This document shows, one piece after another, positions 49,040 through 64,000 of a stretch of 64,000 nt of DNA (position 1 is the first letter of the stretch; every line of letters starts with the position of its first letter). Origin of the DNA: Owenia fusiformis (Eukaryota > Annelida > Polychaeta > Sabellida > Oweniidae). Position numbers and translations under genes: made by a program. The stretch is from positions 38,693,375-38,757,374 of the forward strand of contig CAIIXF020000005.1 in assembly GCA_903813345.2 (NCBI GenBank), given 5' to 3'. Below the pieces are notes generated by a model, which was not told the origin of the DNA, ran no database searches, and saw only the letters and a program-made list of their open reading frames with translations.

Positions 49040-49420
49040 TTGTGCAATAGAAATCTCAACATCAGTCATTGTATATAATAGAAATCTCAACATGAGGCAT
49101 TGTATGTAATAGAAATCCCAACATCAGCCATTTTATATAATAGAAATCTTAACGTCAGGCATTGTATATAATAGAAATCTTAACGTCAGGCATTGTATGT
49201 AATGTAAATCTCAATGTCAGCCTTTGTATGTTATAGAAACCTCAACATCGGCCATTGTGTGTAATAGAAATCTCAACATCAGCCATTGTATGTAATAGAA
49301 ATCTCAACGTCAGCCATTGTATGCAAAAGAAACCTTAATGTCAGCCATTGTATTTAATAGAAATCTCAATGTTAGCCATTGTATGTAATAGAAATCTTAA
49401 TGTCAGCCATTGTATGTTTT
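49040..49420 (+). repeat. 31-bp tandem array running into a splice acceptor (about 12 units)
   Basis: Unit AATAGAAATCTCAACATCAG then CCATTGTATGT, repeated from 49046 on with point changes. The last unit merges with the acceptor GTATGTTTTAG of the next exon, so the branch-point and pyrimidine-tract region of this intron is made of array sequence. Confidence 0.95.
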
Positions 49421-49422
49421 AG

Positions 49423-49537
49423 ATGCAGTTACAACAATTGGGTATCCAGCAGCAACAGCTGGTGCAGCAGATACAACTCCAACAGAGACAATACCTAATG
49501 TCACAGGGCCTAGGCATGCAACCAATGGTAGCCCAAG
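49423..49537 (+). CDS. FoxP: FoxP coding exon, end of the Q-rich region
   Basis: Exon of 115 nt, entering in phase 0 and leaving in phase 1, acceptor GTATGTTTTAG and donor CAAG|GTAAGG. It encodes MQLQQLGIQQQQLVQQIQ, LQQRQYLMSQGLG and MQPMVAQ with a split Gly codon. Vertebrate FOXP has the matching order QQLLQMQQLQQQQHLLSLQ and QRQGLI before the SPAE block. The exon is flanked on both sides by tandem arrays: 31-bp units touch its acceptor, and about 37 copies of its own last ~57 nt plus donor follow it. Reading through the donor would give GKA and then a stop, so only the first donor yields the open frame. Confidence 0.92.
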
Positions 49538-52300
49538 GTAAGGCTTAGTTGTAAAGAACAGAGACAATACCTAATGTCACAGGGCTTAGGCATGCAACCA
49601 ATGGTAGCCCAAGGTAAGGCTTAGTTGTTAAGAACAGAGACAATACCTAATGTCACAGGGCTTAGGCATGCAACCAATGGTAGCCCAAGGTAAGGCTTAG
49701 TTGTTAAGAATAGAGACAATACCTAATGTCACAGGGCCTAGCCATGCAACCAATGGTAGTCCAAGGTAAGGCTTTATTGTTAAGAACAGAGGCAATACCT
49801 AATGTCACAGGGCCTAGGCATGCAACCAATGGTAGCCCAAGGTAAGGCTTTGTTGTTAAGAACAGAGACAATACCTAATGTCACAGGGCCTAGGCATGCA
49901 ACCAATGGTAGCCCAAGGTAAGGCTTAGTTGTTAAGAATAGAGACAATACCTAATGTCACAGGGCCTAGGCATGCAACCAATGGTAGCCCAAGGTAAGGC
50001 TTTGTTGTTAAGAACAGAGACAATACCTAATGTCACAGGGCCTAGGCATGCAACCAATGGTAGCCCAAGGTAAGGCTTAGTTGTAAAGAATAGAGACAAT
50101 ACCTAATGTCACAGGGCCTAGGCATGCAACCAATGGTAGCCCAAGGTAAGGCTTAGTTGTTAAGAATAGAGACAATACCTAATGTCACAGGGCCTAGGCA
50201 TGCAACCAATGGTAGCCCAAGGTAAGGCTTAGTTGTTAAGAATAGAGACAATACCTAATGTAACAGGGCCTAGGCATGCAACCAATGGTAGCCCAAGGTA
50301 AGGCTTAGTTGTTAAGAATAGAGACAATACCTAATGTCACAGGGCCTAGGCATGCAACCAATGGTAGCCCAAGGTAAGGCTTAGTTGTTAAGAATAGAGA
50401 CAATACCTAATGTCACAGGGCCTAGGCATGCAACCAATGGTAGCCCAAGGTAAGGCTTAGTTGTTAAGAATAGAGACAATACCTAATGTCACAGGGCCTA
50501 GGCATGCAACCAATGGTAGCCCAAGGTAAGGCTTAGTTGTTAAGAATAGAGACAATACCTAATGTCACAGGGCCTAGGCATGCAACCAATGGTAGCCCAA
50601 GGTAAGGCTTAGTTGTTAAGAATAGAGACAATACCTAATGTCACAGGGCCTAGGCATGCAACCAATGGTAGCCCAAGGTAAGGCTTAGTTGTTAAGAATA
50701 GAGACAATACCTAATGTCACAGGGCCTAGGCATGCAACCAATGGTAGCCCAAGGTAAGGCTTAGTTGTTAAGAATAGAGACAATACCTAATGTCACAGGG
50801 CCTAGGCATGCAACCAATGGTAGCCCAAGGTAAGGCTTAACTGTTAAGAACAGAGGCAATAACTAATGTCACGGGGCCTAGGCATGCAACCAATGGTAGC
50901 CCAAGGTAAGGCTTAACTGTTAATAACAGAGACAATACCTAATGTCACAGGGCCTAGGCATGCAACCAATGGTAGCCCAAGGTAAGGCTTAGACAATACC
51001 TAATGTCACAGGGCCTAGGCATGCAACCAATGGTAGCCCAAGGTAAGGCTTAACTGTTAATAACAGAGACAATACCTAATGTCACAGGGCCTAGGCATGC
51101 AACCAATGGTAGCCCAAGGTAAGGCTTAGTTGTTAAGAATAGAGACAATACCTAATGTCACAGGGCCTAGGCATGCAACCAATGGTAGCCCAAGGTAAGG
51201 CTTAGTTGTAAAGAATAGAGACAATACCTAATGTCACAGGGCTTAGGCATGCAACCAATGGTAGCCCAAGGTAAGGCTTAGTTGTTTAGAACAGAGACAA
51301 TACCTAATGTCACAGGGCCTAGGCATGCAACCAATGGTAGCCCAAGGTAAGGCTTAGTTGTAAAGAACAGAGACAATACCTAATGTCACAGGGCCTAGGC
51401 ATGCAACCAATGGTAGCCCAAGGTAAGGCTTTGTCATTAAGAACAGAGACAATACCTAATGTCACAGGGCCTAGGCATGCAACCAATGGTAGCCCAAGGT
51501 AAGGCTTTGTCATTAAGAACAGAGACAATACCTAATGTCACAGGGCCTAGGCATGCAACCAATGGTAGCCCAAGGTAAGGCTTAGTTGTAAAGAACAGAG
51601 ACAATACCTAATGTCACAGGGCCTAGGCATGCAACCAATGGTAGCCCAAGGTAAGGCTTAGTTGTAAAGAACAGAGACAATACCTAATGTCACAGGGCCT
51701 AGGCATGCAACCAATGGTAGCCCAAGGTAAGGCTTTGTCATTAAGAACAGAGACAATACCTAATGTCACAGGGCCTAGGCATGCAACCAATGGTAGCCCA
51801 AGGTAAGGCTTAGTTGTAAAGAACAGAGACAATACCTAATGTCACAGGGCCTAGGCATGCAACCAATGGTAGCCCAAGGTAAGGCTTTGTCATTAAGAAC
51901 AGAGACAATACCTAATGTCACAGGGCCTAGGCATGCAACCAATGGTAGCCCAAGGTAAGGCTTTGTCATTAAGAACAGAGACAATACCTAATGTCACAGG
52001 GCCTAGGCATGCAACCAATGGTAGCCCAAGGTAAGGCTTAGTTGTTAATAACAAAGACAATACCTAATGTCACAGGGCCTAGGCATGCAACCAATGGTAG
52101 CCCAAGGTAAGGCTTAGTTGTTAATAACAGAGGCAATACCTAATGTCACAGGGCCTAGGCATGCAACCAATGGTAGCCTGAGTTAAGGCTTAGTTGTAAA
52201 GAACAGAGACAATACCTAATGTCACATGGTCTATAAGAGGCATACAACCAATGGTAGCCCAAGGTAAGGCTTAGTTGTTTAGTTGTAAAGAACAGAGAGG
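49481..52300 (+). repeat. 76-bp array of partial FoxP exon plus donor (about 37 copies)
   Basis: The unit is the last ~57 nt of exon 49423-49537 (AACAGAGACAATACCTAATG, TCACAGGGCCTAGGCATGC, AACCAATGGTAGCCCAAG) joined to its donor and about 19 nt of intron (GTAAGGCTTAGTTGTTAAG). The first unit is the exon itself; the rest are intronic. Units are mostly identical or differ by one or two bases, with variants in the intronic part (TTTGTTGTTAAG, TTTGTCATTAAG, TTAGTTGTAAAG) arranged in runs, which suggests block amplification. One unit near 50983 is shortened. The last units are degraded. The 69-codon minus-strand frames inside it are repeat artefacts. Confidence 0.97.
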
Positions 52301-52570: not shown

Positions 52571-52768
52571 GCATGAGTCCCGCAGAAATGGCTGCATTGT
52601 GGAAAGAAGTATCTGGCCAATCAGGTGCAGATGAGAACAAAAGCCCAATTTCCAGTTCTATGGGAATGACGATGTCTCCATCTTTAGCGAGTATTGCCCC
52701 AAGTGGAATCTTGATGGGACAGAACCCACTTGCTAATGGACTCCATGCAGGGTACATGGGCTTAGAAG
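52571..52768 (+). CDS. FoxP: FoxP coding exon with conserved SPAE-LWKEV block
   Basis: Exon of 198 nt, entering and leaving in phase 1, acceptor TGTTTTCTAG and donor GAAG|GTATGT. It completes the split Gly codon and encodes GMSPAEMAALWKEVSGQS, GADENKSPISSS, then a Met/Ser/Gly/Ala-rich part ending GLHAGYMGLE. SPAE followed by LWKEV is one of the best-conserved FoxP blocks outside the zinc finger and forkhead domain (vertebrate form SPAEIQQLWKEVTG) and identifies the subfamily. A minus-strand frame of 68 codons over the same DNA is a shadow. Confidence 0.95.
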
Positions 52769-59991: not shown

Positions 59992-61370
59992 ATGGTCGGA
60001 TGTAAAATAGATGGAGGAAAGAGTGTACACTATTTAAAGATAATAGATGGCCAAGGTCCAGCTAAAGAGAATACTGAAGATCACATATTTGTTGAAAACT
60101 GTCTGGCTCAGGGACCTTCTAGAACTGATAGGGAATTAGACCATTGGTACCATGATGATAAAAAATATGTTAAGAGAAATTACAATTGTGTTGGTGGCAT
60201 TGAAAAACACACCAAGGAACTAACGAAGTCTGGGATTGATAAATTGGACCTGTTACTTAGACCACTTTATATTGATATACCCAAGGAAGACTTGGCCTGT
60301 TCTAGTGACAGTGCACATCCAGTAAAGGACTTTGGTGTTTTAGGTGAACAAAATCTAAAACAAGATACTACATTCGTAAATATTAATCGAGACAATATTA
60401 TGGATCATTGTGCGGAGTCCAGCTCAATGACAAATATAAATATTATGGATAGTAAGATAAGAACTTGTTTCAGAGAATCTTTTGAAATGGCTAATCATAT
60501 GTCTCCCATACAGATCTCATCACATAACAGTGGCGCCCCCTTTAAGCCACGTAGAATGAGGGAGTATTCTTCTTCATCGACAAGCTCGGCAGAAGAAACA
60601 TTGCAACATCCATATCAGCAGCAGTCGCCATCTACCTCTGCAGATTTGAATTATAAAGCCCAGGATGCATCGAGAATGAATTTGCCAAATGGACAATTAA
60701 ATCACATTGCAGTGTCGAACTACTCACATTTAACGAGCATGTTAATGCGTTCTAATCCAGCGACGTCTAGTACTATGACAGGTTATCTCGGTTACCCTAG
60801 GGATTCTCCATTCTATAAGCCTCTATTAACAAATCTTGATTTAAAACATAGTGATCAAACAAGAATGTTACATGGAGCACCTAAAGATGGCAGCACTTCA
60901 CCTACAGATCCAGTGCCCAATTTAACTCTTTCATCTTCTAGCATATCTTCTACTGAGCTAGTTTCAAATTCTGCTCATAATTTGTCATCAGTTGCTCAAA
61001 CTGTATTAAGCAGCAGTAGTCTAGGAGTTAATACAACTGACACATCGAGTACGAGCCCAGAGCGATCTCTTTACCCTCAGCTCTTAAATCCCTATAGTAG
61101 TATGGATTTAGGGGGGTACTCCGTAGGATACAACCATGCTATGGGATTATACCAAGATTTGGGACTATCTCAGACGCTACGTGTAAACCCTATAGATTTA
61201 ACAGCTAATATGTGGCGGTTACCTTTTCTATCTTCAGGAGGACTTTTAGGGCCAATGGCACAATCCATGAAAGATGCCGAGAACAATCATACTCATCCCT
61301 TATATGGTCATGGGGTCTGTAAATGGCCGGGCTGTGACGTTCCCGCAGATGATTTCCCAGCATTTATGAA
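59992..61370 (+). CDS. FoxP: FoxP large exon: Ser-rich linker and first half of the C2H2 zinc finger
   Basis: Open frame from 59980 to a donor AA|GTAAGT at 61371, ending in phase 2; I place the start at the ATG 59992. The first ~200 residues (VGCKIDGGKS...) match nothing I know. A Ser-rich linker follows (REYSSSSTSSAEE, QHPYQQQSPSTSA, LTLSSSSISSTEL), then NPIDLTANMWRLPF and HPLYGHGVCKWPGC. That last block is the FoxP zinc finger start (vertebrate form HTLYGHGVCKWPGC), with both zinc-binding cysteines; the histidines lie in the next exon, outside the window. The previous exon ends in phase 1, but no phase-1 acceptor exists at the 5' edge. Phase-1 acceptors inside (before 60344 or 60593) would join in frame, making the upstream part specific to another isoform. 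Family identity is firm; the 5' boundary is not. Confidence 0.88.
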
Positions 61371-64000
61371 GTAAGTATCTTAATAGTTGTTTTTTCTATT
61401 CTTATATTTCATTTGTTTTAAGTTAATGTACATGTCAGGAACTATTTTTAAGATTCTCTTCTGTTATTATTTTTTTTACAAATGCCTATAAGTGTAAGTG
61501 AAAGTTAAAACATGTATAGTGGCAGTTTAGATTTTTGAAATTTGAGCTATTCTAAATAAAATAACTCCCATTACCTCTCTGTATTTTCTGTTTGTTTAAA
61601 TATATTTGTTATTAATTTATTTGCAATTAGATGGATTTTTTATTTTATTTTAACTGACACTCGTTGAGGGTCAAGTAAATATTTATTTTGCATTGATATT
61701 GATCAAACTGTATTTACAAAATGACAACAAATGTTGTATGTTGTCATGTTTGTCACTAATGAAAGTGTGTATCACTCTTGAGAAACTAAACACAATCCTC
61801 AGTTTTGTTGTTTTAATTTTATTATTTCATGGAGAATGCAGAAGGTGAATATTTTTTTTTAGATTAGCTGGAAGTTTTTATTTATTTATTCCATTTCAAA
61901 GTAAATTTTGATGAAAGAAGAGGTAGGGCAGCTTTGAATAAAAAGTAATTAAACAGATGTGAACTAATTTAATGTCCTTGAAAATACAATCAACATTGAA
62001 TGACTTTTTTATACATAAGAAACTGCTTTAATTTGATATAAGGAATTAGTCCTGAATTAGATGTATAAGTATGCATTTGGGTAATTTTAGGAATTCTTGA
62101 CCAAAAACGATATATTTTATCCATTTTTATTGTTTGACCCATTTTCCTAAAGTAATACAGTACATCAGATGCAGATGCCACATGCATCCACTGCTCATGT
62201 CAATATTTGATATCAATTCATCAATAAAAATGATACTCATCTCTAAAATGATCTGATATTTTATCTATGTTACATTCACCTATTTTTCATACCTCATTTC
62301 ACTACAGTGACAATGTCAGCTCTCTTAGTCTAGAGAGTACATTTGCTGGACTCAAAAATGGTGTCAAGGTTCTGTCTGAAGGTCTGTCCATTAAATATGT
62401 GTTTAATCTAGGCAGTTTTTAAGTGTACTACCCCTTCAAAAAGTATAATGTCCCCTTTTGCACGAGGCATATCATGTAAAACAAAATACAGAGGAATTCT
62501 GAAAAATTGAAGTTGATCAAAACAAGAAGTTTAGATTTTTAATTTCATAAGTTAATGCAACATCAAAATTATTTTGAAATGAATGATAACTCAAGCTGAT
62601 AATCTAGCACAAATTCTTGACTTGAATTTAGTTGGTAAGGAAGTCACCTTGTGTGAACCCAAATAAACATTGGATTTTAAAGAAGGCAACCTCATTCTGG
62701 ATTTTATTAATACATGTATTATGTTCTTTTCTTTAGCTCTTTTTGAAAAATTTAGAAAAGAATTTAGAAAAGATAACCTCATATATTTAGGATCATTTAA
62801 TATTTTTATTATTACATTATAGTTGCATTTCCATTTAATATCATTGTATTGTAATTTATTTTCTAATTTCAGTGGTTTTACAATATTTCTGGATTTTTAC
62901 CAGGTTTTAGTTCTTATAGTTCTTAACGTGTTAAAGGTCTCTATATTTTTATATACGAGTATGGTACTCCTTATTTAGAACCTTGCAAGTAAATAGCTTA
63001 ACAGATGGTACCCACTAAACGGCCTTGTCGGAACTATTTTTTAACTCTAATTAATGTTCTCAATTAAAACTACATAACCGTTAAATTTAATTACACTATT
63101 TGTGCATATCTTATGGAGAATTTAGAAATAAGATATCGCTAACAAATGTCACTTTTGGCTAAGCCTTTTTGATTAAAAAAATCAATTTTGTGCTTTTTGT
63201 TTAGATCGGCAATTAATAAAGCAAATAACAGTTGGTTGATGATTCTTTATTAAAAGAAAGACGAAAATCGTTATCAGACCATTTTTATATTAATTCATTT
63301 CAATTCAGAATTCAAAGTCTCACTTTTATGAGCTTGGTCGGAACTATTTTATTGTTCTATTTTTTCAAATTTGTAATTTACATCACAAAGAACTCCTCGG
63401 TAATTGCTCATGAGTGTAAAACAGTAAAAGATAAACATTGCTTGAGCATGAATAAACAAAACCATCTGGGATTGTTGATAACAAAATTTCCCAATCGGGC
63501 TTGTCTAAATAATGTCAAATGCTTTACAATGTTCTGTTACTTATTTATCAAAAAAATCAATACAACAAACATTTTCCGGGCCTTTTGAGAATTAATAAAA
63601 ATAAATTATTTGGAGTGTTCAGCTTGTATTGGGAAGCATAGTCTGTAATGTATTGATTTACGTCATTTGTATATGTACAAATAGGAACAACTGACACGTT
63701 GATTGTTTAGGTCCTGTTTCTTGTTATTTAAACAACTTGTTTCTCCATTCTTTTCCCACATGATTGTTTGAATATGAAAACGGTTTATTTTTCTATTTTT
63801 GTAATTTGAATTGTTTAAATGTCATAAGATGTTTATTTATTTGGATACTAATCTTTTGAAGCAGTGTTGCACCTATTGATTACTTCCATTGTATTTACTT
63901 TCAGATTTTATATATGTGTAAAATGTACATCTAATTTTTTCCCTTAATTTGTTATGTCTGTAATTCTCATCAGGGTTCTTTATTTGTCACAATAGAATTG
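61371..64000 (+). other. FoxP intron, running off the window
   Basis: Starts with a strong GTAAGT donor. I searched it for the expected continuation of the zinc finger (a His-Leu-Asn-x-Glu-His segment) and found none on the + strand, so that exon lies past 64000. The stretch is AT-rich and without recognised repeats. A 118-codon frame at 63232-63588 has no recognisable domain. Confidence 0.7.

Follow-up and report, generated by a model that had tools for sequence, protein, structure and literature searches.

An array of tandem repeats at the end of a FoxP exon of the annelid Owenia fusiformis belongs to a known kind, the mirages, i.e. minisatellite-like tandem duplications of exon-intron boundaries described for amphioxus Adh3 and the globins BflGb6 and BflGb9 (PMC3087553), and arrays of the same type are present at other genes of the same animal. 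Probably the FoxP array goes back to a seed over the exon-intron boundary, was born by slippage, was shaped by unequal exchange and has been tolerated because the donor attached to the exon is intact. Positions without a prefix refer to the window, the whole stretch of 64,000 nucleotides analyzed (contig CAIIXF020000005.1, positions 38,693,375 to 38,757,374 of the forward strand).

The name mirages was first used for amphioxus Adh3, with a 2002 Adh paper cited by PMC3087553 and PMC3902484; in amphioxus, mirages have also been described at troponin C and PGBD5 (PMC3902484). As in Owenia, the splice site lies within the tandem units of the amphioxus mirages, the true exon is preserved at one end of the cluster, both donor-side and acceptor-side forms exist (the globin mirages were found at both boundaries, PMC3087553), and the clusters are homogenized inside and diverged at an edge. 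Amphioxus mirages are reported to vary in length and also to show somatic instability (PMC3087553, PMC3902484). The FoxP unit has 76 bp and 37 copies, compared to 10-72 bp in amphioxus Adh3 (PMC3087553, PMC3902484), whereas BflGb6 has units of 150-160 bp, with 6 and 3 of them in two haplotypes. The host here is an annelid and not a cephalochordate. Three matches to the erythrocruorin linker domain, which marks annelids, cluster on C6. Searches of the assembly for mitochondrial COX1, for GFP, which is present in amphioxus, and for the mollusc haemocyanin domain yielded no match; in the GFP and haemocyanin searches the controls gave no signal either, so these two negatives do not demonstrate absence. 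In intron gain by tandem duplication of AG/GT segments (Rogers model as given in PMC3087553; PMC4974935) the duplicated stretch holds AG/GT, as it does at FoxP, and therefore new splice combinations are possible; unlike in that model, the FoxP array lies inside an existing intron, with no new intron shown. Human internal tandem repeats at exon-intron boundaries, reported from segmental duplications (PMC2812944), are likewise exon-edge repeats able to alter gene structure, but there modified gene structures were reported, whereas the FoxP exon reads on unchanged from its first donor. PMC7710358 was rejected as a mirage source, since the word stands there only in an unrelated title within the reference list. 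In the literature searched, with subscription papers largely outside the search, mirages were reported from amphioxus only. Mirages at conserved annelid genes would widen this range and make them a wider feature of animal genomes. They would supply many natural experiments on how one splice site is selected when dozens of identical copies are available, and would make it possible to examine whether arrays of this type give rise to new introns.

Each unit of the FoxP array spans the exon-intron boundary, with 57 nt from the exon tail and 19 nt from the intron; the original prediction of about 37 such units was accurate. Exactly 76 bp are found in 34 units, a fused pair measures 66 and 71 bp, and the last unit has 77 bp with indels. 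A search of the whole genome with one unit listed 37 matches, which is a lower bound, all of them at the FoxP locus. Every unit had been said to keep both the exonic flank and the donor, and this is the case for 36 of the 37: AAG/GTAAGG is present in these, and unit 36, in which the donor is lost, reads GAGTTAAGG instead. The array interior contains runs of identical units, and divergence is seen at the 3' edge (units 36 and 37) and not at the exon-side edge, a pattern that fits the recent homogenization proposed earlier for the near-identity. Coordinates of the features are given in Table 1.

Table 1. Features at the FoxP locus (window positions) and exon-edge arrays elsewhere in the genome with the matches of their exons
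Feature	Position	Strand	Remarks
FoxP exon	49423..49537	+	115 nt, reads MQLQQLGIQQQQLVQQIQLQQRQYLMSQGLGMQPMVAQ; acceptor TTTTAG before, donor AAG/GTAAGG after
Minisatellite array, 37 units of ~76 bp	49481..52278	+	unit 1 = exon tail 49481-49537 + intron 49538-49556
AACAGAGA, first direct-repeat copy	49481..49488	+	in exon; taken as birth site
Units 20 and 21	50925..51061	+	fused through loss of 15 bp at junction
Diverged 3' edge	52126..52278	+	unit 36 (donor lost) and unit 37 (indels)
AACAGAGA, second direct-repeat copy	52291..52298	+	in intron; 12 nt (spacer-like) past the end of unit 37
Next FoxP exon	52572..52767	+	in frame if joined from first donor
L001, donor-side array	C1		PTCB-BRCT 9.5e-11
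L002, L003, donor-side arrays	C1		frame and splice signals alone
L004, donor-side array	C1		NAD_binding_2 5.4e-8; HIBADH 3.2e-13
L005, donor-side array	C1		COesterase 2.3e-12
L007, donor-side array	C1		UreG 5.3e-9
L008, donor-side array	C1		weak alpha/beta hydrolase matches only: 0.003, 0.055, 1.1
L010, donor-side array	C1		DHX36 0.004
L011, donor-side array	C1		OPA1_C 4.4e-15
L012, donor-side array	C1		Scramblase 1.8e-8
L015, acceptor-side array			Nucleoporin_C 3.4e-13
L021, acceptor-side array			CAD 6.1e-5; Pfam only 0.22
L022, acceptor-side array			RNase_H 7.7e-4
L023, acceptor-side array			no match
L024, donor-side array			reversed-word sample; no match
L025, further array, period 54			tetraspanin-like exon end, Pfam E 0.058, below cut-off

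The gene had been named FoxP from the sequence, and matches to FOXP-CC (61300-61377 and C5:38758857-38759003, with no further FOXP-CC match found) and to the forkhead domain (C5:38760924 and C5:38761735), all downstream of the array, agree with this name. Taken by itself, the portion of FOXP-CC inside the window falls just short of the threshold (27.9 bits, cut-off 28.9), since exon boundaries divide the domain. The stretch GMSPAEMAALWKEV presumably resembles vertebrate FOXP. Donor 1 joined to the next exon gives an open frame (...VAQGMSPAEMAALWKEVSG...), and the authentic exon is intact at the end of the cluster; the frame test used 52571-52767, with the intron/exon cut placed by eye as TTTTCTAG/G. 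From any of the other 35 intact donors, all distal, the frame runs into a stop at one common position, 41 codons past the exon start. This is the immediate stop that had been read as GGT AAG GCT TAG, and it would truncate FoxP.

Variation among the 34 full-length units is unevenly distributed. The exonic part departs from the consensus in 28 of 1938 cells (11 of 57 columns variable) and the first seven intron nucleotides in 1 of 238, compared to 35 of 408 cells and 8 of 12 columns in the last 12 nt, so that 'almost without divergence', as the array was first described, suits the exonic part and fits the last 12 nt less well. In tests that ignore the shared descent of the units, variable columns are fewer in the exonic part plus donor than in the spacer (12 of 64 versus 8 of 12, p 0.0017; p 0.015 with linked changes merged by eye), and singleton and shared variants differ (p 0.02). 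Intact donors are in slight excess (36 of 37 observed, 32.5 expected, p 0.049). Plain neutrality predicts neither the skew towards a conserved exonic part and donor nor the excess of donors.

Selection on the exonic part was rejected as a general rule, since ten other exon-edge arrays show no skew between exonic part and spacer (odds ratio 0.88, p 0.80). L004 entered this comparison without spacer columns and L021 without variable columns; L003, L005, L007, L010, L011, L012 and L024, whose units are irregular or which had been located by eye, were omitted. In the same comparison with the outermost units trimmed, p was 0.00025 for FoxP (35 units) and 0.058 for all eleven arrays together. With the outermost units kept (with L003, without L021 and L031) the counts leaned to variable spacers. 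The variable spacer columns of L022 dropped from 11 of 28 before trimming of the outermost units to 0 of 28 after it.

Both borders of the FoxP array carry the same 8 bp, AACAGAGA. Among five other donor arrays checked for such a direct repeat, its length is 12 bp in L008 (one mismatch), 10 bp in L025 and only 4 bp in L004, which could be chance, and none was seen in L001 and L002. Minisatellites are generally modeled as born by duplication between direct repeats, and here too duplication between two such copies would be the simplest origin of the array. Slippage or unequal exchange between the exonic and the early intronic copy of AACAGAGA would have duplicated a stretch of 76 bp, after which the array may have been expanded and homogenized by unequal exchange, the 3' units being left diverged. 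The intact donor on the exon-attached copy together with exon definition, which favors the near donor for an exon of 115 nt, would let the intron be removed as before, and the array would be neutral.

Similar arrays were sought with the donor word AGGTAAG. Three words at gaps of 54-84 occur 2002 times genome-wide and three copies of the word read backwards 1037 times, single occurrences being 62,839 and 79,990, respectively. The first 100 places listed for AGGTAAG represent 16 loci on C1, of which four dispersed AGG-rich repeats were dropped and 12 were examined. Among these 12 listed C1 arrays, 10 begin at an apparent coding exon end as judged by eye, i.e. with a reading frame ending at the donor and an acceptor before the frame, and L006 and L009 account for the other two, which are non-exonic. 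Eight of the 10 exons could be matched to a protein family or structure, one of them weakly (L008); the gene at L001 is presumably MCPH1. In the UreG-like gene (L007 ~930-990, about C1:26076230-26076290) the donor attached to the exon reads GTAGGA and the following copy, 40 nt on, reads GTAAGA, which makes this locus a candidate for a real donor shift. A dispersed AGG-rich minisatellite is near-identical between C1:2960588, C1:9402211, C1:15584762 and C1:17746952.

As a control, the reversed word gave 18 loci among the first 100 places listed, from which 7 belonging to two dispersed families were dropped. Exon edges, again judged by eye, carry 5 of the 11 listed arrays examined, one of them a donor case and four mirror cases, in which acceptor and exon start are repeated before the exon. 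Both forms thus exist in one genome, donor-side for example in L001, L004 and L005, and acceptor-side in L015, L021, L022, L023 and L031. A second control consisted of 15 random pieces of 10 kb (150 kb) from eight of the twelve chromosomes, in which all 19 TRF arrays with a period >=25 and >=2.8 copies were read with their flanks. A single one of the 19 coincides with an exon edge, on the acceptor side of an STI1/HOP-like exon (2.6e-4; PDB 2.3), perhaps of a ubiquilin. This is close to the 6-9% expected by chance if 0.8 exon edges per kb are assumed.

Some further repeats were recorded alongside these samples. A 108-bp x 2.8 repeat at L030:9395-9700 is seemingly open on the minus strand and may sit inside a coding exon. 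At L037:8569-9017 a 64-bp array starts beside an apparent GTTAGT donor on the minus strand and adjoins the exon without including it. Many units of an 86-bp x 34 array at L017:1301-4276 have TTGCAG and then GTA at a constant position, and no coding exon was recognized alongside the array. A dispersed tandem family of ~90-bp units with AACGTTACTTT is found at C1:3360551, C1:38621966, C1:54412545 and C2:10711859.

Exon-edge arrays are frequent in Owenia. Their recurrence is probably explained by a genome that is rich in minisatellites and in which exon edges are not spared. It is unlikely that exon edges are in addition preferred seeds, where a process linked to splicing or transcription duplicates boundary segments more than other DNA. 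The proportions in the word-selected arrays (10 of 12 and 5 of 11 among the matches listed) hint at exon edges being hit beyond chance; the random sample, with just 1 of 19, does not, and a higher frequency of both words at exons is to be expected. Non-family C1 arrays per thousand words amount to 1.5 for AGGTAAG versus 0.9 for the reverse (p 0.16). That donor arrays are far commoner than the control, as the raw genome-wide counts had suggested, was rejected, since separate non-family C1 arrays number 12 versus 9 (p 0.16). On a wider reading, which we consider improbable to a like degree, exon edges would be preferred seeds, many genes would carry dozens of spare, near-identical splice sites, and the FoxP array, with its unusually conserved exonic part and donor, would be one that is kept clean by selection or by exchange with the exon. 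The spare sites would then form a lasting reserve from which new introns, shifted donors or introns with many U1-binding sites could arise.

The original prediction also held that splice choice could set the amount of full-length FoxP. Identical donors would compete, and splicing from one beyond the first would bring in array sequence with a stop. The 36 identical donors, 35 of them distal with the same early stop, as well as the lower variability of exonic part and donor compared to the spacer, are in line with such regulation. Nothing here, however, favors it over tolerated repeat DNA, and we regard it as very unlikely: functionally unrelated genes show the same architecture, the amphioxus authors report data suggesting no interference of mirages with regular splicing (PMC3087553, PMC3902484), and an AATAG variant in 14 of the 34 units is a stop in the exon's own frame, so that coding sense is not maintained in the copies. 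Most likely the FoxP array is repeat DNA that is tolerated, and not a switch of FoxP.

Slightly less probable still is an assembly artefact, in which the array exists but the unit number in the animal differs and is perhaps far smaller, since, although near-identical units are hard to assemble and a draft genome contained a misassembled version of one published amphioxus mirage (PMC3087553), shared and private variants, including the 15-bp deletion, are patterned along the array in a way that simple read duplication would not yield, and similar arrays lie at many places in the genome. By analogy with the amphioxus mirages, array length is likely to vary between individuals.

A second array of 31 bp x 12 (49046-49417) is located upstream of the FoxP exon and stops 5 nt before it. 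The non-repeat sequence between the 31-bp array and the 76-bp array is thus only 63 bp long (49418-49480).
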